Program-made: the position numbers and the translations under genes
From: an uncultured delta proteobacterium
GTDB lineage: Bacteria > Myxococcota > Myxococcia > Myxococcales > 40CM-4-68-19
Reading direction: 5' to 3'
Length of the DNA: 64,000 bases
Assembly (NCBI GenBank): GCA_903911145.1
Contig: CAIWCD010000007.1
Location: forward strand, 1 to 64,000
Part shown: positions 49,184 to 59,716 of the stretch, in pieces
How the letters are laid out: every line of letters begins with the position of its first letter
Numbering within the stretch: position 1 is the stretch's first letter
The notes under the pieces: model-generated
What the model saw: only the letters and a program-made list of their open reading frames with translations
Database searches by the model: none
What the model was told of the DNA's origin: nothing

Positions 49184-50545
49184 CTAGTCTGCGGGCTGCG
49201 GATCGGTCAATGCGAGATCACCGCTCTGTGCATCGCGTTCATTCGCCGGTGTTGGCGTAAGCGCGGCAGCGGCGGCGCAGGCGAGCGCGAGAACGAGAAA
49301 GTGATAGTTCGCGAAGGCCTGCTTGCCGATGTCGAAGAAGCCCGCGAAGGCGAAGGCGAGCGCCGCGAGAGCGCCACCAACGTTGCGCGGCGAGAATCGC
49401 CAGCCGAGGGCGAGAGCGGGCGCGAGCACGAGGAACGAGGTGAATCCAGGCAACTGCGGACCTCCAGCGCGAGCGAGCAGAGCGGCGAAGCTGAGCGCGT
49501 CGAAGCGAAACGGCTGGCGCAACTGGAAGAGCAGAACAGAGTCGACAAAGTCGCTCGGCGCGAAAAGCGCGAGCGGCAGGCTGATGAGCAGCGCAAGTGC
49601 GCACGCACGCAGCGCCCGCCCCGCAAGTTGCGCGCGACGCTCCTCGGAAAACAGCAGCGGCAGCAGAGGAAGAATGAAGCAGCCGTACTGCTTGACCGCG
49701 ATGAGACCGGCGAGCAGCCACGTCGACAGACGCGGCGCGCGCGGAGCAGCGAGAGCCAGCGCGCAGACGAACGCGACCATGAGCGGCTCGGTCCATCCCT
49801 GCTCGAGCACGAAGAACGTGCGCGGAGAAAAGAGCAGGAGCAGCGCGCAGAGTTCACCGATGCGTCCGCGTCCGAGTTTCGCGATGCAGGCAGCGCTCAC
49901 GGTCAGTGCCGCGACAAGAGCGATTCGATAGTCGCCGCAGAGAAAGTGCGCGAGGAACGTGAGCGCCAGAGAGAGCGGCGGATAGGGATGGCCGACGTGC
50001 ACAATTCCATCGCGCACCAGTCCCTCGCCGTAGAAGCGCGCATCACCGTAGAGGAGCGGGATGGTCGTCGCGTACGGACTGTGACCATCGAGGAGCGCGG
50101 CGAACCCGGCGCGGTGGAAGAGGAAGACATCGATCGCGGGAGAGGGCGACGCGCGCAGAAGCCAGAGCACGAGCGCCGCGTGAGTAGCGAGCAGGAGCGG
50201 CCAGCGCAGACGCCCGAGCGGCGGTGAAGGAAACATCCCGGCGACCGCCAGCGCGATCGCAACGAGCAGTCCGCCCCAGAACGGCCACGGACCGCCCGGA
50301 ACCGGATGCAGATCGATCCCCGGAGGCCGGACGAACTGCGCCGCCATCGAGAGCAGCACGAGCGCAGCGGCGGCGAGCGAGAGCAGCGCGACCGCGACCA
50401 GAGCGAGCGCGACAGGATCGAAGGCCCCGTCGCGCAGCCAGATCGCCCATCCGGTCGCGACCGCTGCGAGCGCCGCGAAGGTCGTCCGCGCGGCGCTCAA
50501 CGCACCGCTCGGACCGATGTTCGCTGCCGCTGTTGGCGTCGACAT
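49184..50545 (-). CDS. DUF2029/GT87-like membrane protein
   Basis: A 453-residue polytopic protein with about eleven to twelve hydrophobic helices. A large first loop has DVFLFHRAGFAALLDGHSPY near 140, which resembles the Asp-containing loop of DUF2029/GT87 mannosyltransferases. HVGHPYPPLSLALTFLAHFL and the VLEQGWTEPLMVAFVCAL segment also fit. It is probably a polyprenol-phosphate-sugar glycosyltransferase. It is the first gene of a minus-strand run and is divergent from the kdp operon, with 189 bases between. Confidence 0.68.
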   Translation of the reverse strand: MSTPTAAANIGPSGALSAARTTFAALAAVATGWAIWLRDGAFDPVALALVAVALLSLAAAALVLLSMAAQFVRPPGIDLHPVPGGPWPFWGGLLVAIALAVAGMFPSPPLGRLRWPLLLATHAALVLWLLRASPSPAIDVFLFHRAGFAALLDGHSPYATTIPLLYGDARFYGEGLVRDGIVHVGHPYPPLSLALTFLAHFLCGDYRIALVAALTVSAACIAKLGRGRIGELCALLLLFSPRTFFVLEQGWTEPLMVAFVCALALAAPRAPRLSTWLLAGLIAVKQYGCFILPLLPLLFSEERRAQLAGRALRACALALLISLPLALFAPSDFVDSVLLFQLRQPFRFDALSFAALLARAGGPQLPGFTSFLVLAPALALGWRFSPRNVGGALAALAFAFAGFFDIGKQAFANYHFLVLALACAAAAALTPTPANERDAQSGDLALTDPQPAD

Positions 50546-50600
50546 AGAGGGGTTCGCTTCTCATCGCCGCGCAGCTTCCGCAAGCTGCTCGTCGCCGCCC

Positions 50601-50644
50601 GTGCAATTCGCAACTCGACCGCCGCCTCCATTTGCAAATTGCAC
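50601..50644. promoter_or_regulatory. inverted repeat, probable activator-binding site upstream of kdp
   Basis: GTGCAATTCGCAA (50601-50613) and TTGCAAATTGCAC (50632-50644) are reverse complements at 12 of 13 positions, with 18 bases between. The pair is A/T-rich compared with its surroundings. It is centred about 85-90 bases before the predicted sigma-54 transcript start, the usual position for an NtrC-type activator site. Confidence 0.55.
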
Positions 50645-50684
50645 GGCTCCTCGAGAAATCCCCGCGTCGCACGGCCCTTCGCGC

Positions 50685-50700
50685 GGGCACGCCCGATGCA
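50685..50700 (+). promoter_or_regulatory. sigma-54 promoter of the kdp operon
   Basis: GGGCACGCCCGATGCA matches the sigma-54 consensus TGGCACG-N4-TTGCA at 10 of 12 fixed positions, with exact GG-N10-GC spacing. The expected transcript start is near 50711. A CGGAGGA ribosome-binding site (50724-50730) precedes the first start codon at 50735, giving a short, coherent leader. Confidence 0.65.
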
Positions 50701-50734
50701 CTGCCGCCTCTCGCTTCTTTTCGCGGAGGACTTT

Positions 50735-50818
50735 GTGCTCGATCTCATCGTCGTCGGTGTCACCCTCGCCTTCTTCACCGCGTGCGGCCTCTACGCCTAC
50801 GCGCTCGAGCGTCTCTGA
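50735..50818 (+). CDS. 27-residue membrane microprotein upstream of kdpF
   Basis: A tiny open frame starting at GTG, with CGGAGGA four bases upstream. Its product is one hydrophobic helix (LIVVGVTLAFFTACGLYAYA) followed by LERL. Its TGA shares one base with the ATG of kdpF, so translation is coupled. From memory, similar short proteins precede kdpF in other bacteria. Its position makes a role in Kdp assembly or stability plausible, but no activity is established. Confidence 0.6.
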   Translation: MLDLIVVGVTLAFFTACGLYAYALERL

Positions 50819-50919
50819 TGGAGGCGACTCTCTCCGTCGACTATGCGGTGGGTCTCGCGCTCTGCGTGCTCATCACCGGCTACCTCGTCTACGCGCTTCT
50901 GCGCCCCGAGCGGTTCTAG
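50818..50919 (+). CDS. kdpF: KdpF, small subunit of the potassium-transporting ATPase
   Basis: A 33-residue single-helix protein ending GYLVYALLRPERF, the signature end of KdpF (compare E. coli LGYLVYALINAEAF). KdpF stabilises the KdpABC complex. It overlaps the preceding microprotein gene by one base and ends two bases before kdpA. Confidence 0.85.
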   Translation: MEATLSVDYAVGLALCVLITGYLVYALLRPERF

Positions 50920-50921
50920 CC

Positions 50922-52643
50922 ATGACGACTTCAGGCTGGATTCAACTGCTCGTCTTTGCCGCGCTGATCCTCGTCTGCACGAGGCCCGTCGGCGGCTATC
51001 TCTTCCGCGTCTTCGAAACCGAGACGCCACCGCTCAAGAGCACGCTGGGCGCGGTCGAGCGACTCCTGCTGCGTCTGGTTGGCGTCGATCCGAAGAAAGA
51101 GCAGACGTGGGTGCAGTACGCGATGGCGCTGCTCGCCTTCAGCGCGTTCTCGATGCTGGTCACCTACGCGATGCTCCGCATGCAGCACGGACTTCCGCTC
51201 AATCCGCAAGGGTTCGCCAACGTCGATCCCGCGCTCGCGTTCAACACGGCCGCGAGCTTCACGACCAACACGAACTGGCAGTCCTATTCAGGCGAGCAGG
51301 TGATGAGCCACCTCTCACAGATGGCGGCGCTCGCCTGGCACAACTTCACCTCGGCCGCAGCGGGCATCGGCGTCGCACTCGCGCTCTCACGCGGACTTGC
51401 ACGTCGCCCCGGCCCCGACGGAGCGAAGACGCTCGGCAACTTCTGGGTCGATCTGATCCGCGCGCACGTCTATGTGCTCATTCCCGCGAGCATCATCACC
51501 GCGTTGATCTTTGTCTCGCAGGGAGTGACCCAGACGTTTGCGGGCCCGCAAACCGTGACCACGCTCGAAGGTCTGCAGCAGATCATCGCGCTCGGTCCGG
51601 TTGCGTCTCAAGAAGCGATCAAGATGCTCGGCACCAATGGCGGCGGCTTCTTCAACGCCAACAGCGCGCATCCGTTCGAGAACCCGACGCCGTTCGCAAA
51701 TCTCCTGCAGATGTTCCTCATCTTCATCATCCCCGCAGGCCTGACCAACACGTTCGGACGGATGGCGCGCGACGCTCGCGAGGGCTGGGCGCTGTTCGGC
51801 GCGATGAGCGCGCTGTTCCTGATCGGCGCGCTCGTCTGCTGGGGCGCAGAAGCGCGGCCCAACGCTGCGCTCGCAGGTCTCGGCGTCGATCAATCGATGG
51901 GAAACCTCGAGGGCAAGGAGTGCCGATTCGGAGTCGCCGGCTCGACGCTCTTCGCCACCGTCACGACCGACGCGTCGTGCGGCGCAGTCAACTCGATGCA
52001 CGACAGCTTCAATCCCATCGGCGGCCTCGTCCCGATGCTCAACATCCAGCTCGGCGAGCTCGTCTTCGGCGGCGTCGGTGCGGGCCTCTACGCGATGCTG
52101 ATCATGGCCATTCTCACCGTCTTCATCGCGGGCCTGATGGTCGGCCGCACGCCCGAGTATCTCGGCAAGAAGATCGAAGCGCGCGAGATGAAGCTGGCGG
52201 TGCTCTACACGCTGATCTTCCCCCTCATCATCCTCGCGCCGGCAGCGTGGGCCGCAATCGACAAGGGCGCACTTGCTTCATTGAACAACGGCGGCCCGCA
52301 CGGGCTCAGCGAGATCCTCTACGCCTTCACCAGCGCGGCCGGAAACAACGGCTCGGCATTCGCGGGGCTCAACGCCAACACGAACTTCTGGAACTTCTCA
52401 CTCGGCATCTCGATGCTCGCCGGCCGCTTCTTCATGCTCCTGCCCGCGCTGGCATTGGGCGGCGCGATGATCGGCAAGAAGGTCGTGCCGCAGAGTCTGG
52501 GCACCTTCCCGACCACCGGCGCGCTCTTCTCCGCCCTGCTGTGCGCCGTCATCCTCATCGTCGGCGCGCTCACATTCTTCCCGGCGCTCGCGCTCGGGCC
52601 TGTCGTTGAAGCGCTGCTCGCACAGAGCGGAAAGGTGTTCTGA
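50922..52643 (+). CDS. kdpA: KdpA, potassium-binding channel-like subunit
   Basis: A 573-residue membrane protein with ten or more helices, related to the SKT family of potassium transporters. Selectivity-loop landmarks are seen: [19 protein letters not shown] near 110, [20 protein letters not shown] near 240, [22 protein letters not shown]-type sequence near 355, and [17 protein letters not shown] near 475. These four glycine-rich filters coordinate potassium. Length is that of E. coli KdpA (557). The ATG at 50922 begins two bases after kdpF. It forms the high-affinity uptake complex with KdpB, KdpC and KdpF. Confidence 0.96.
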
Positions 52644-52644
52644 T

Positions 52645-54723
52645 ATGGCCGCCAAATCAAAGCGGCTGTCGCTGTTCGATCCGTCGATCATCCGCGCCGC
52701 CCTCTGGGACAGCATCAAGAAGCTCGATCCGCGCGCGGTCGCGAAGAACCCGGTCATGTTCGTCGTCGAGATCGGCAGCGCAATGACCACCGCGCTCTAC
52801 ATCCGCGATCGAATCCACCCCGAGCACGCGGCCGCGCCGACCTGGTTCACGTTCGCGATCTCGCTCTGGCTCTGGTTCACCGTGCTCTTCGCGAACTTCG
52901 CCGAGGCAGTCGCGGAGGGTCGTGGCAAGGCGCAGGCAGACACGCTGCGACGGATGAGGCAGGAGACGAGCGCGCGCAAGGTACGGACCTGGCCCGCACC
53001 CGAGGGTGTGCCGAGCGTGGCGAACGAGGAGCGAATCCCCGCCTCGCGCCTGAGGAAGGGAGATCTGATCGTCGCCTGGGCCGGCGAGATCATCCCTGGC
53101 GACGGCGAGATCATCGAGGGGATCGCGTCCGTCGATGAGTCGGCGATCACGGGCGAGTCGGCACCGGTCATTCGCGAGAGCGGCGGCGATCGCAGCGCGG
53201 TCACCGGCGGCACCAAGGTCTTGAGCGATCGCATCGTCGTGCGCATCACGGCCGATCCCGGCGAGTCGTTCCTCGACCGGATGATCCGCCTCGTCGAGGG
53301 CGCGGCCCGCCAGAAGACGCCCAACGAGATCGCGCTGCACATTCTCCTCGTCGGCCTGACGATGATCTTCCTGCTCGCCTGCGCGACGCTGGTTCCGCTC
53401 GGGATCTACTCGGGCGTGGCGATCCCCGCGGCCACAGTGGTCGCGCTGCTCGTGTGTCTGATTCCGACGACGATCGGTGGCCTGCTCTCCGCGATCGGCA
53501 TCGCGGGAATGGATCGGCTGCTGCAGAAGAATGTGCTCGCGATGAGTGGCCGCGCAGTCGAAGCGGCGGGCGACGTCGACGTGCTTCTGCTCGACAAGAC
53601 CGGCACGATCACCCTGGGCAATCGGATGGCGACAGCATTCCTGGCCGCTCCTGGCGTGGCCGCGCGCGATCTCGCCGATGCCGCACAGCTCGCGAGCCTC
53701 GCCGATGAAACCCCCGAAGGACGCAGCGTGGTGGTGCTCGCGAAGGAGCAGTTCGGCATGCGCGAGCGGGCGCTCAACGAGGGCGAGCACACCTTTGTTC
53801 CCTTCACCGCGATCACGCGCATGAGCGGCTGCGATCTCAACGGGCGCATCCTGCGCAAGGGCGCAGTCGAGGCGATCGGCCGGCACGTCGTCGCGCTCGG
53901 CGGCACGCTGCCCGACGAGGTGCGCACAGCGGCGAACCAGATCTCGGATCAAGGAGGCACTCCGCTCGCCGTCGCAGAGGGCGCGCGCGTGCTCGGCCTC
54001 ATCCAGCTCAAGGACGTCGTGAAGGGCGGCATCCGCGAGCGGTTCGACCGATTCCGCGCGATGGGCATCCGCACCGTGATGATCACGGGAGACAACCCGC
54101 GCACGGCGGCAGCGATCGCGGGCGAAGCAGGCGTGGATGATTTTCTCGCCGAGGCGACGCCCGAGATGAAGATGCAGCTCATCCGCGACGAGCAGGCGAA
54201 GGGCAAGCTCGTCGCGATGACGGGCGACGGCACCAACGATGCGCCCGCGCTCGCGCAGGCCGACGTCGGCGTCGCGATGAACACCGGCACGCAGGCAGCC
54301 AAAGAGGCCGGCAACATGGTCGACCTCGACTCGAATCCAACCAAGCTGCTCGAGGTGGTCGAGGTCGGCAAACAGCTATTAATGACCCGCGGGTCATTAA
54401 CGACCTTCTCGATCGCCAACGACGTCGCGAAGTACTTCGCGATCCTGCCGGCACTCTTCGCGACGGCCTATCCGGAACTCAAGACGCTCGACGTGATGCA
54501 CCTGGCGTCACCGCTCTCGGCGATCCTGAGCGCAGTGATCTTCAACGCGCTGATCATCGTCCTGCTCATCCCGCTCGCACTGCGCGGCGTGACGTACCGT
54601 CCACTCGGCGCATCGGCGCTGCTGCGGCGCTCGCTGCTCATCTACGGAGTCGGCGGCGTGATCGCGCCGTTCGTGGGCATCAAGCTGATCGACCTGCTCA
54701 TCTCGTCGATCGGTCTCGTCTGA
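52645..54723 (+). CDS. kdpB: KdpB, P-type ATPase catalytic subunit
   Basis: A 692-residue P-type ATPase that drives potassium uptake through KdpA. Diagnostic motifs: [12 protein letters not shown] (actuator domain), [12 protein letters not shown] with phosphorylated Asp near 317, TPEGRSVV (TPEGRS, KdpB-specific), [18 protein letters not shown] (hinge) and the final [23 protein letters not shown]. Length matches E. coli (682). It starts one base after the kdpA stop. Rare codons CTA, TTA, TCA and TTA around 54376-54397 create a perfect 22-base palindrome inside the gene, listed separately. Confidence 0.96.
54379..54400. promoter_or_regulatory. perfect 22-base operator-like palindrome inside kdpB
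   Basis: The core ATGACCCGCGGGTCAT is flanked on both sides by TTA/TAA so that all 22 bases are symmetric. It shares the half-site TTAATGACC with the palindrome at 10559-10576. It encodes conserved KdpB residues LMTRGSL, but with codons (TTA, TCA) that are rare here, so the symmetry is not forced by the protein. Confidence 0.5.
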
Positions 54724-54795: not shown

Positions 54796-55401
54796 ATGAT
54801 CCGCGAACATGTTCTCCCCGCAGCCCGCGCCACGCTCTGCACGCTGCTCATCACCGGAGTGGCCTATCCGCTCCTCTGCACCGGGCTGGCCCTGGTGCTC
54901 TTTCCGCAGCGCGCGAGAGGCAGCTTCGTCACCGACGACGCCGGCCACACCGTCGGCTCCGAGTTGATCGCGCAGCCGTTCGCGAGCGCGGCCTATGTGC
55001 AGCCTCGACCCTCGGCGGCCGGAGACAAAGGATGGGACGCGAACAACTCGGGCGGCTCGAACCTCGGCGCGACGTCGAAGAAGCTCCGCGACCGCGTTCA
55101 GGCCGACGTTTCGCGACTCAAGACCGAGAACCCAGACGCGCTTGCAGAGATTCCGGCGGAGCTGGTCACCACCTCGGGAAGCGGACTGGATCCGCACTTG
55201 TCACCCGCCGCGGTGCGGTGGCAGATCCCGCGCATCGCGCGCGCTCGCCAGGTCGCACCGGATCGCATCGAGCGGCTCGTGGCCGACCAGATCGAAGGTC
55301 GCGATCTCGGCTTTCTCGGCGAGCCGCGCGTGAATGTGCTCTTGCTCAATCTGGCGCTTGATCGGTTGCTCGGGAAGCCAGTAGCGCCGCCGGGAAAGTA
55401 G
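54796..55401 (+). CDS. kdpC: KdpC subunit
   Basis: A 201-residue subunit with one N-terminal helix (about 10-34, ATLCTLLITGVAYPLLCTGL) and a periplasmic domain. GSELIAQPFASAAYVQPRPSA, WDANNSGGSNLGATSK and the closing DPHLSPAAVRWQIPRIA with NVLLLNLALDRL are family-typical. KdpC joins KdpA and KdpB and increases potassium affinity. GAGGAGTCGAAG precedes the ATG. It is 72 bases after kdpB, unlike the tight spacing of the other kdp genes. Confidence 0.95.
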   Translation: MIREHVLPAARATLCTLLITGVAYPLLCTGLALVLFPQRARGSFVTDDAGHTVGSELIAQPFASAAYVQPRPSAAGDKGWDANNSGGSNLGATSKKLRDRVQADVSRLKTENPDALAEIPAELVTTSGSGLDPHLSPAAVRWQIPRIARARQVAPDRIERLVADQIEGRDLGFLGEPRVNVLLLNLALDRLLGKPVAPPGK

Positions 55402-55421
55402 CGCGCAGGGGAGGACGATTG

Positions 55422-56558
55422 ATGCCGGCAAGCCGCGTCGAAGATTTTCTCGAACTCGTCGAGCGCGCCCGGCGCGGGCGGCTGAAGCTCTATCTCGGCT
55501 TTGCAGCCGGCGTCGGCAAGACGTTCCGCATGCTCGAGGAGGCGCACGCACTGCAAGTGCGCGGCGTCGATGTGGTGGTCGCGTTCGTCGAGACGCATGG
55601 CCGCATCGAGACCGAGCGACTCGTCGATGGCCTCGAGGTCATCCCGCGACGCCGCATCGACTACCGCGGCGTCACGCTCGAGGAGATGGACATCGCCGCT
55701 GTCATCGCGCGCGCTCCCGCCATCGCCATCGTCGACGAGATCCCGCACACGAATGTGCCGGGAAGCGAGCACCGCAAGCGCTGGCAGGACGTGATCGATC
55801 TGCTCGATCGCGGCATCAACGTGATCGGCGCGATGAACGTGCAGCACCTCGAGTCGCTCGGCGGACTGCTCGAGCGCGAGACGGGCGTGCTCGTGCGCGA
55901 GACGGTTCCCGACACATTTCTGCGGCGCGCCGATCAGATCGTGAACCTCGATCTCGCGGTGGAAGATCTCCAAGAACGTCTGCGCGCGGGAAAGATCTAT
56001 CCGGCCGACAAAGTGCCGTGGGCGCTCGAGCACTTCTTTCAGATGAACAATCTGACGACGCTGCGCGAGCTCGCGCTGCGCGAAGTGGCCGAGAGCCTTG
56101 ATCGCTCCGCGACCGCCACCAGCGCGGCCGCGGCGCCCGAGAAGGGTCATCGCGGCGAGCGCGTGATGGTGGCGATGTCGTCGAATCCGCCGCACGGGAT
56201 GACGCTGCTGCGGCGCGGCTCACGCATGGCGGGACGTCTCAACACCGACTGGTTCGTCGTCTATGTCGAGACGCCGGATGAAGACGCGCTGCGCATCAGC
56301 GCGGAAGCGCAGCGGGTGCTCCTGGCCAATCTGGACAAGGCCCGCGAGCTCGGCGCCGAGGTGGTTCGACTGCAGTCGCGCGATCCGGTGACTGCGCTGC
56401 TCGACTTCGCCCGCTCGCACGGCGTCGGTCATGTCATCGTTGGTCGCAGCACGCGGGCGCGCTGGAAGCGGCCTTTCTCGCGATCTCTGATCGAGCGGCT
56501 GATCGATGATGCGGAAGGTCTCGATGTGCACGTGACCGCGCTCGAGGAGAGCACATGA
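55422..56558 (+). CDS. KdpD sensor module (KdpD N-domain plus USP domain, no kinase)
   Basis: A 378-residue soluble protein equal to the N-terminal cytoplasmic half of KdpD. The KdpD domain (about 12-225) has Walker A GFAAGVGKTFRML near 26 and the Walker B-like VDEIPHTNVPGSEHRKRWQD. The universal-stress-protein domain (about 245-375) starts GERVMVAMSSNPPHG. The four membrane helices, GAF and kinase domains of full KdpD are missing. The next gene supplies a histidine kinase, overlapping by four bases (ATGA). It probably senses potassium, ATP or c-di-AMP for that kinase. An adjacent TTG could add one codon. Confidence 0.9.
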   Translation: MPASRVEDFLELVERARRGRLKLYLGFAAGVGKTFRMLEEAHALQVRGVDVVVAFVETHGRIETERLVDGLEVIPRRRIDYRGVTLEEMDIAAVIARAPAIAIVDEIPHTNVPGSEHRKRWQDVIDLLDRGINVIGAMNVQHLESLGGLLERETGVLVRETVPDTFLRRADQIVNLDLAVEDLQERLRAGKIYPADKVPWALEHFFQMNNLTTLRELALREVAESLDRSATATSAAAAPEKGHRGERVMVAMSSNPPHGMTLLRRGSRMAGRLNTDWFVVYVETPDEDALRISAEAQRVLLANLDKARELGAEVVRLQSRDPVTALLDFARSHGVGHVIVGRSTRARWKRPFSRSLIERLIDDAEGLDVHVTALEEST

Positions 56559-58378
56559 GTCTGCGCTCCAAACTTCTGCTCGCGCTGATTCCTCTTGCCG
56601 GCGCGCTGCTGCTGCTCGGTGGACAAGCGGTGCGCGTGATCGCGCAGCAAGGCGAGCTCTCGCAGCGCATCCTCAAGGACAATTATCGCAGCGTGCTCGC
56701 GGCGCAGCGGATGAAGGAGGCGGTCGAGCGCATCGACAGCGCGATGGCCTTCCGCGCGGCCGGGCGCGCAGACAAGGCCGCGCCGCAGGATGCGCAGAAC
56801 CGCACCCGGTTCTCTTCCGAGCTTTCGATCCAGGAGCACAACATCACCGAGGCGGGCGAAGCGGAGGCGACGCGGGAGCTGCGCGCGCGCTGGCAGAGCT
56901 ACCTCACCGAGGCCGACCGCTTCGTCGCGCTCGCGCCGGAAGTACAGCGCACCGACTACTTCGCGACGATGGAGCCGGCGTTCCTGCGCGTGAAGACGGC
57001 GGCCGATCGAATCCTCGAGCTGAACCAGGACGCGATGGTGCGCAAGAGCGAGCAGGTGCGCATCGCGGCGGAGAAGCAGAACGCGATGATGCTGGCCGCG
57101 ACGCTCGCGGCCGCGCTCTCGGGCGTGCTCGCGAGCGTCTGGATCACCGGGCAGCTCCTGCGGCCGCTCTCGGTGCTGACCCAGGCCGTGCGGCGTGTGG
57201 CCGAGGGAGATCTCGCCGCGCGCGCGGATCTGCGCGGCAGCGACGAGATCGCGCAGCTCGCTGGCGAGTTCAACACGATGGCCGCGCGCATCGCGGAGTA
57301 TCGGCGCAGCTCTCTTGGTGAGCTGCTTCAGGCACAGCATGCTTCGCAAGCGGCCATCGACAGCCTGCCCGATCCGGTGGTGATTCTCGGAAACGAAGGC
57401 GCGGTGCTCAACGTCAATCACGCAGCAGAGGCGCTCTTGCAGATCGGCTCCGGAGCGCGCGCCGATCCGCTCGCGCTCGCGACTGCGCCCGTGCGCGAGT
57501 TGCTTGAGAAGGTTCGCGCGCACGTCATCTCCGGCAAGGGTGCGTATGAGCCGAAAGGATTTGAAGAGGCGCTGCGCCTCGAGGGAAATGGCGGCACGCG
57601 CTACCTCTTGCCCCGCGCGGAGCCGGTCTACTCGGAGGAGGCCGGGATCGTCGGCGCGGCGATCGTGCTGCAGGACGTGACGCGGCTGTGGCGCTTCGAT
57701 GAGCTCAAGAACGATCTCGTCGCGACAGTGGCGCACGAGTTCCGCACGCCGCTCACGTCGTTGCGCATGGCGATCCACCTCTGCGTCGAGGGCACGGTCG
57801 GGCCGGTGACGGAGAAGCAGAGCGAGTTGCTCCACGGCGCACGCCAGGATTGCGAGCGGCTCCAGGACATCGTCGATGATCTGCTCGATCTCGCGCGCAT
57901 CCAGGCTGGGCGCGGCGAGGTCGTGCCGCAGCCGTGCGCGACGCGGGAGCTGATCGACAAGGCGCTCGCGGCGCAGAAGGAGAGCGCGCACAGCGCAGGC
58001 GTGCGGCTCATCGATGCACTTGTCGAGCCCGTGCCTTCCGTGCTCGCGGACAGAGAACGCATCGGGCTGGTGCTCGGCAACATGATCGTCAATGCGCTCA
58101 GGCACGCGCCGCGCGGCAGCAGCGTCGAGCTGCGCGCAGAGCGGCAGAGCAAAGAAGTCCGCTTCAGCGTGCGCGATCAGGGACCGGGCGTGCCGCGCGA
58201 ATACCAGCAGCGGATCTTCGAGAAATTCTTCCGCGTGCCCGGAACAACTGGCGAGGGCGTGGGCCTCGGCCTCTACATCTCGCGCGAGATCGTCCGCGCG
58301 CACGGCGGCGAGATGGGCGTCGAGACTGCCGAAGGCGGCGGCGCGCGCTTCTGGTTCACGCTGCCCGCAAGCGCGTAG
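56555..58378 (+). CDS. membrane sensor histidine kinase, probable partner of the KdpD module
   Basis: A 607-residue kinase. Membrane helix 1 lies at about 6-27 and an extracytoplasmic helical region at about 28-175. Helix 2 is near 176-200, with HAMP to about 250 (LLRPLSVLTQAVRRVAEGDL), PAS at about 265-385, and the H-box VAHEFRTPLTSLRM with phospho-His near 395. The catalytic domain shows the N-box NMIVNALRHAP and G-boxes DQGPGVP and GVGLGLYI. The extracellular domain differs from KdpD, which has almost none. Coupling by ATGA overlap to the KdpD module suggests one signalling complex. It ends nine bases before the convergent NtrC-type gene. Confidence 0.92.
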   Translation: MSLRSKLLLALIPLAGALLLLGGQAVRVIAQQGELSQRILKDNYRSVLAAQRMKEAVERIDSAMAFRAAGRADKAAPQDAQNRTRFSSELSIQEHNITEAGEAEATRELRARWQSYLTEADRFVALAPEVQRTDYFATMEPAFLRVKTAADRILELNQDAMVRKSEQVRIAAEKQNAMMLAATLAAALSGVLASVWITGQLLRPLSVLTQAVRRVAEGDLAARADLRGSDEIAQLAGEFNTMAARIAEYRRSSLGELLQAQHASQAAIDSLPDPVVILGNEGAVLNVNHAAEALLQIGSGARADPLALATAPVRELLEKVRAHVISGKGAYEPKGFEEALRLEGNGGTRYLLPRAEPVYSEEAGIVGAAIVLQDVTRLWRFDELKNDLVATVAHEFRTPLTSLRMAIHLCVEGTVGPVTEKQSELLHGARQDCERLQDIVDDLLDLARIQAGRGEVVPQPCATRELIDKALAAQKESAHSAGVRLIDALVEPVPSVLADRERIGLVLGNMIVNALRHAPRGSSVELRAERQSKEVRFSVRDQGPGVPREYQQRIFEKFFRVPGTTGEGVGLGLYISREIVRAHGGEMGVETAEGGGARFWFTLPASA

Positions 58379-58387
58379 CGGGAGAGT

Positions 58388-59716
58388 CTAGCTGCCGTCG
58401 TATCGCTTGCGCTTGCGCCAGAGCGTCGAGACATCGACGCCGAGAACCTTCGCCGCCTCCTCGAGCGTTGATGAGCGCGCGAGCACGCTGAGGATGTGCT
58501 CGCGCTCGACCGAGTCGATCGAGAAGTCGCCGCCGAGCACGGGCTTGGTCGCTCCCGTCGGCACCATGCGCTCAGGCAGCGCCTCCGGCCCCAACCGCTC
58601 ACCCGGCGAGAGGATCACTGCGCGCTCGAGCGTGTTGCGCAGCTCGCGCACATTTCCCGGCCACGCGTATGCGGTGAGAATCTCCTCCGCCTCGCGCGTC
58701 AACTCCGGCACACCTCGCTTCGCCGCGCGGGAAAACTGCGCGAGCAGGCGGTGGGCGAGCGGGACGATCTCACTCTTGCGATCGCGCAGCGGCGGCACCG
58801 CGACCGCGACGACGTCGAGACGAAAGAGCAGATCCTCGCGAAAGCGGCCCGCCTTCACATCGGCGTGGAGATCGCGATTGGTCGCGGCGACGATGCGCAC
58901 GTCGGCAGTGCGGGTCTGCGCGTCGCCGATGCGCTCGAACTGTTTGTCCTGCAGGAAGCGAAGCAGCTTCGCCTGCAGCGCGAGCGGCAGCTCGCCGATC
59001 TCGTCGAGGAAGAGCGTGCCTCCCTGCGCCTGCTCGACACGCCCCGGCTTGTCGCGCAGCGCGCCCGTGAACGAGCCGCGCGCATGGCCGAACAGTTCGC
59101 TCGCGAGCAGCTCCTCGGAGAGCGTCGGGCAGCTCACCTGAGCGAACGGCTTTCCGCGCCGCGGACTCTTCTCGTGCAGCAGGCGCGCGAGCATCGTCTT
59201 GCCCGTGCCGCTCTCTCCCGTCAGGAGAACGGGAGCGTCGTGCGGCGCGGCCCGCTCGATGATCTCGACGGCGGCACGCATCGGCGGACTCGCATGCGAG
59301 AGATCGATCTCCGGTAGCGCATCGCGCGTCTCGCCCGCGCCAGGAGCGGCTCCGCGCGTGCGTCGCTCTTCCACGCGATCGAGCACCTGGCGGATCTGCG
59401 CGGGGGTGAACGGTTTGGGAAGATAGTCGCGCGCGCCGAGTTTGATCGCCTCGACGGCAGTCTCGATTGTCGCGTACGCGGTGATCACGATCACGTCGAG
59501 GCCGGGCCGCACAGCGAGCAGCTTCGGCAGCAGCGCGAGTCCGTCTTCGGTGCCCAGGCGGAGATCGAGAAACGCCAGGTCGCACGCGCTGCGCGCGAGC
59601 TGCTCCAGCGCCAGCGCGCCGTTCGCCGCCTCGCTCACTTCGCAGTGAAGTCCTTCAAGGCAGAGCACCAGCGCGCGCCGGATGTTCTTCTCGTCATCAA
59701 TCACCAGCGCCCGCAT
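58388..59716 (-). CDS. NtrC-family sigma-54-dependent response regulator
   Basis: A 442-residue regulator. The receiver domain (1-118) has phosphorylatable Asp 51 (AFLDLRLG) and KPFT near 103. The AAA+ domain (about 143-375) has Walker A GESGTGKT near 166, a GSFTGA variant of the sigma-54-contacting GAFTGA loop near 212, Walker B GTLFLDEIGEL and NVRELRN. A Fis-type helix-turn-helix closes the protein (LEEAAKVLGVDVSTLWRKRK). It faces the kinase gene convergently, nine bases away. It probably activates the kdp promoter at 50685-50700. GAGGAGA precedes the ATG. Confidence 0.93.
   Translation of the reverse strand: MRALVIDDEKNIRRALVLCLEGLHCEVSEAANGALALEQLARSACDLAFLDLRLGTEDGLALLPKLLAVRPGLDVIVITAYATIETAVEAIKLGARDYLPKPFTPAQIRQVLDRVEERRTRGAAPGAGETRDALPEIDLSHASPPMRAAVEIIERAAPHDAPVLLTGESGTGKTMLARLLHEKSPRRGKPFAQVSCPTLSEELLASELFGHARGSFTGALRDKPGRVEQAQGGTLFLDEIGELPLALQAKLLRFLQDKQFERIGDAQTRTADVRIVAATNRDLHADVKAGRFREDLLFRLDVVAVAVPPLRDRKSEIVPLAHRLLAQFSRAAKRGVPELTREAEEILTAYAWPGNVRELRNTLERAVILSPGERLGPEALPERMVPTGATKPVLGGDFSIDSVEREHILSVLARSSTLEEAAKVLGVDVSTLWRKRKRYDGS

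Follow-up and report, generated by a model that had tools for sequence, protein, structure and literature searches.

In the window (the whole stretch of DNA analysed here, 64,000 nucleotides of a myxobacterium-like genome), the operon of the emergency potassium pump Kdp appears to depend on a sigma-54 promoter at 50685-50700, preceded by two operators that are candidate dimer sites of the NtrC-type regulator encoded beside the operon. We consider it very probable that this regulator acts on both operators, in response to low-potassium signalling, to drive the sigma-54 kdp operon. Judging from the sequences compared, sigma-54/NtrC control of kdp is a conserved module common to several bacterial phyla.

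Gene content and promoter region of the kdp locus

The locus includes the following features (positions are those of the window):

50601..50613, no strand: distal operator GTGCAATTCGCAA, with palindrome core TGCAATTCGCA at 50602-50612; centre at about -104
50632..50644, no strand: proximal operator TTGCAAATTGCAC, with palindrome core TGCAAATTGCA at 50633-50643; centre at about -73
50685..50700, + strand: sigma-54 -24/-12 element GGGCACGCCCGATGCA, two mismatches, top score in the window, kept in relatives
about 50711, + strand: predicted transcription start, about 12 nt past the -12 GC
50735..50818, + strand: 27-aa hydrophobic mini-protein VLDLIVVGVTLAFFTACGLYAYALERL, GTG start, GCGGAGG upstream
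50818..50919, + strand: kdpF, 33 aa (Potass_KdpF 5e-8; TIGR02115 8e-9)
50922..52643, + strand: kdpA (TIGR00680)
52645..54723, + strand: kdpB (TIGR01497)
54796..55401, + strand: kdpC (domain/family match)
55419..56558, + strand: short KdpD, with KdpD sensor and Usp domain and without kinase (PF02702, PF00582)
56555..58378, + strand: separate membrane histidine kinase (HAMP, PAS, HisKA, HATPase_c), overlapping the short kdpD gene
58388..59716, - strand: NtrC-type response regulator, its gene convergent with the operon; it consists of a receiver, a sigma-54 activation domain (GSFTGA) and a Fis-type HTH

A single KdpA is encoded in the genome. The KdpD is not a full-length KdpD histidine kinase, as it stops after the Usp domain, and its match to NF038185 (KdpD-like non-kinase potassium sensor) is below the family cut-off. 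No OmpR-type KdpE was found beside the operon, where the sole adjacent response regulator is of the NtrC type. The mini-protein gave no match in Pfam or NCBIfam. Of 136 kdp loci from different phyla, at least 56 have a similar mini-ORF (M.DLxFVxxTxxFFALxxxYxxGCERL) ahead of kdpF/kdpA, and these include loci without the NtrC-type regulator.

Within GGGCACGCCCGATGCA, GG at 50686-50687 and GC at 50698-50699 have the exact GG-N10-GC spacing that the first-pass annotation had pointed out. This spacing occurs 1157 times in the window and was dropped as evidence. Compared with TGGCACG-N4-TTGCA, the element has two mismatches and is the sole site with at most two in the 64 kb; it also obtained the highest sigma-54 score of the window in a position-weight scan, the matrix being an approximation of the published consensus. 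Shuffled windows contain about 1.5 sites per 64 kb scoring as well. Given these equals and the abundance of the spacing, the sigma-54 element alone proves little. In the genome, PF00309 (sigma-54, rpoN) has one match over the cut-off. By the geometry of sigma-54 promoters, transcription should begin about 12 nt past the -12 GC, from which we infer a start at about 50711, 24 nt before the first ORF (50735).

The two operators, GTGCAATTCGCAA and TTGCAAATTGCAC, are each a near-palindrome of the form TGC-N5-GCA, and their starts are 31 bp apart, i.e., about three helical turns; the positions of their centres are counted from the inferred start. An A/T-rich inverted repeat had been proposed here earlier: the repeat exists, but two tandem palindromes describe it better than a single inverted repeat, since what the relatives conserve is each palindrome together with the 31-32 bp spacing, and not the arm-to-arm symmetry. 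The window holds no second such pair, and none as good as the kdp pair was found in 30 shuffled windows. Chance could produce the sigma-54 match alone; it could not produce the operator pair. In classical NtrC promoters of the glnAp2 kind, the -24/-12 element is preceded by two tandem dimer sites with a spacing of about three helical turns. The layout of tandem dimer sites ahead of a -24/-12 element is the same here, whereas the signal, the operator sequence and the targets differ.

Recurrence of the promoter module in related kdp loci

We defined a composite module as two TTGCA-N3-TGCAA operators 31-32 bp apart, followed by a sigma-54 element at a distance of 75-111 bp, counted from where the distal operator starts, and applied this strict criterion to as much as 2.6 kb of the sequence ahead of kdpA. 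The sample included 80 KdpA relatives and the kdp/regulator regions of further relatives; the motif was derived from the window's own family before being tried on other groups. Scanning both strands of the window returned exactly one module, the site at 50601-50700.

The comparison of kdp promoters in relatives, which the first-pass annotation had suggested as a check, found the module upstream of kdp in 33 of the 50 loci linked to an orthologous regulator (Myxococcota, Desulfobacterota-type genomes, and Riflebacteria) and, under the same strict criterion, in none of the 38 loci whose KdpD is of another type. The Fisher value was 4e-15, which is indicative only, because the loci are related and thus not independent. 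The module was also present in 5/11 split-KdpD loci whose regulator is off the fragment and in 2/35 kdp loci without regulator information, and it occurred in none of 1340 shuffles and never in reversed sequences. This supports the earlier proposal of a sigma-54 promoter served by an upstream site at which the neighbouring NtrC-type regulator acts. Among the 17 regulator-linked loci that fail the strict criterion, some are truncated and some carry a module further upstream or just below the threshold, which accounts for part of the 17.

The position of the module varies among groups. In the window's family, the palindrome pair 31-32 bp apart and a GGCACG-N4-RTGC-like element directly precede the mini-ORF or kdpF. 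In Desulfobacterota-type genomes, the module is mostly between the regulator and kinase genes, and the Riflebacteria genome (L014; G061 contig C152) has three modules around kdp. The Myxococcaceae, lacking a module within 700 bp of kdpA, at first appeared to be a counter-example. This was dropped: their operon begins with a porin gene, and the module precedes that gene, about 1.3-1.5 kb upstream of kdpA. A MAFFT alignment of the promoter DNA was uninformative. The Riflebacteria contig C152 of G061 also encodes two tandem regulator copies, with 60 and 61% identity to that of the window.

Textbook kdp control consists of KdpD/KdpE and sigma-70. A sigma-70 kdp promoter under an OmpR-type KdpE encoded elsewhere in the genome, with the sigma-54-like site and the palindromes being fortuitous, would correspond to this arrangement, and the sigma-54 element by itself is within chance expectation. 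Moreover, the textbook pair exists in the same order: in three loci of another family (L134, L136, and L137), a full KdpD of about 900 aa is followed by an OmpR-like KdpE (231 aa in L137), recognised by reading the ORFs. In these three loci, however, the module is absent, and more generally the full module is kept with the NtrC-type regulator and missing where KdpD is of other types. Furthermore, the KdpD of the window has no kinase, and a consensus scan of 50500-50950, which may miss myxobacterial promoters, found no sigma-70-like promoter. We therefore regard sigma-70/KdpE control of this operon as highly improbable.

The palindromes would also suit many dimeric regulators, and they could serve a repressor, or act as a DNA structure, without any link to sigma-54 activation. 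Against this, the 31-32 bp spacing and the position upstream of the sigma-54 element are fixed, on the promoter's strand, across phyla, which leaves such a role with a negligible probability. Activation at a sigma-54 promoter is the reading that we retain.

The NtrC-type regulator and known kdp control systems

The first-pass annotation had described the nearby regulator as an NtrC type with a GSFTGA loop, and the domains of the 58388-59716 protein agree with it, the GAFTGA-type loop being present as GSFTGA. The same variant is listed also for D. vulgaris DVU3220 (Kazakov 2015, PMC4641369). In a midpoint-rooted tree of 71 regulator proteins, the window regulator and 65 others were separated from five paralogues with support 100/99. 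The recognition helix is near-constant among the orthologous regulators (LGIDASTLWRKRKKY type), and the paralogues differ. Of the 195 genomes in the window's phylum, 84 gave an orthologue (at least 47% identity, E <1e-120); for the phylum around L033 the figure is 30 of 297. Two genomes, G043 and G001, gave no regulator match above E 1e-100. G001 belongs to the window's genus and carries a more distant kdp operon (L112; kdpA 55%), which is on a short contig, so that a regulator there is not visible. Two copies of the regulator are present in genome G378. One of them (L295) is aligned without an intact GAFTGA loop; this copy may have lost the ability to act with sigma-54, unless the alignment is faulty at that point.

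Another enhancer-binding protein could occupy the operators of the sigma-54 promoter, with the adjacent regulator serving other genes. Indeed, myxobacteria have many such regulators, the first regulator search returned 119 candidate stretches in the window's own genome, which fits many paralogues, and kdp of D. vulgaris is the target of two additional regulators (PMC3333781). Nevertheless, the presence of the operators follows this orthologous regulator group, in most loci the regulator is encoded beside the operon, and in several relatives the operators are found also ahead of the regulator's own gene. A different activator is thus very unlikely, and we continue with the adjacent NtrC-type regulator.

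A sigma-54/NtrC-controlled Kdp had been put forward in the first-pass annotation as an unusual regulatory design, but it is not unprecedented. In D. vulgaris Hildenborough, the NtrC-type regulator DVU3334 was mapped to kdpFABC (Rajeev 2011, PMC3333781), and the sigma-54 regulome lists it among the GAFTGA regulators, with potassium uptake as its function (Kazakov 2015, PMC4641369). Both systems have an NtrC-family two-component regulator adjoining kdpFABC and kdp as a sigma-54-dependent target, and in both KdpD is divided between a sensor/Usp protein and a histidine kinase of its own; the regulator gene is inside the operon in D. vulgaris, while it is convergent here. The window thus presents the linked NtrC-family regulator, the split KdpD and, judged by sequence and conservation, the sigma-54 promoter of the DVU3334 type, and the finding joins a known type of system. 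The regulators of L287 and L290-L292, which have a DVU3334-like gene order, fall in the group of the window regulator (100/99) in the tree, which was built without the DVU3334 sequence. Three of these loci (L287, L291, and L292) carry sigma-54 sites and related but rearranged half-sites (e.g., ATGAAATTTGCAT and TGCATTTTGAAA), and the operator spacing therefore seems to have changed in that branch.

The E. coli KdpD/KdpE system, together with L134, L136, and L137, also controls kdpFABC and shares the KdpD sensor and Usp domains; unlike the system described here, it has a full-length KdpD kinase, an OmpR-type winged-helix KdpE and no sigma-54 module. In the available part of the report on Deinococcus radiodurans kdp (PMC5716572), KdpD-N is naturally truncated and the sensor kinase and response regulator are separate genes, as in the window. 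By contrast, its regulator is 23.9% identical to KdpE and binds the promoter in a T-rich region; that part reports no sigma-54 link.

Taken with the D. vulgaris precedent, the domains and the conservation suggest how the system could work, from the signal and the order of phosphotransfer to operator binding and sigma-54 use. The mini-ORF, kdpF, kdpA, kdpB, kdpC, the short kdpD and the histidine kinase gene would form one operon. Low potassium or turgor would be sensed through the short KdpD and the histidine kinase encoded next to it, leading to phosphorylation of the NtrC-type regulator, whose dimers would bind both TGC-N5-GCA operators (centres at -104 and -73), form an AAA+ ring and remodel the sigma-54 RNA polymerase. 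As the sensor genes are within the operon, a self-reinforcing induction is expected.

In Myxococcus xanthus, kdpAB shows a strong osmotic induction (log2 8.7-10.3), attributed by the authors to KdpDE (PMC5857379), for which NtrC/sigma-54 control offers a likely explanation. In the same species, removing sigma-54 has been reported to be lethal (PMC12316311). Among the open-licence literature, we found no paper on a sigma-54/NtrC kdp design in myxobacteria. The textbook KdpD/KdpE and sigma-70 picture would not be general: the sigma-54 alternative, mapped in one sulfate reducer, would be a widespread parallel solution, with both types occurring in one bacterial order.

Further candidate targets of the regulator

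The specific operator can now be used for potassium regulon prediction. On balance, we favour, with moderate confidence, a cross-phylum potassium regulon in which an NtrC-type regulator with the tandem TTGCA-N3-TGCAA operator would coordinate Kdp in the inner membrane with a BBP2 porin in the outer membrane and, in some genomes, a KimA-like transporter and the regulator itself. If this is true, potassium limitation would be handled across both membranes via sigma-54. We found no report of the porin link in open-licence papers, and both this link and the cross-phylum operator appear unreported.

Genome-wide operator counts rest on pattern searches: by exact search, paired TGC-N5-GCA sites at 31 bp occur at four places in the 5.3-Mb genome, two of which have A/T-rich cores (kdp and contig C13:485488), and the 32-bp spacing occurs at one place, which is G/C-rich. 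The C13:485488 pair and a sigma-54 match (score 13.3) point at a BBP2 porin gene (L179:2967-4508), and the porin heading the Myxococcaceae kdp operon belongs to the same BBP2 Pfam family. From these sites, the same regulator probably also drives the BBP2-family porin in this genome.

In four loci (L118:2459, L119:2378, L146:5298, and L183:5980), the regulator gene itself is preceded by an operator pair, which suggests autoregulation. In several relatives, the operator before the regulator gene adjoins a gene for an amino-acid-permease-family transporter, resembling KimA in our reading of the sequence; in L118 the adjoining gene is divergent.
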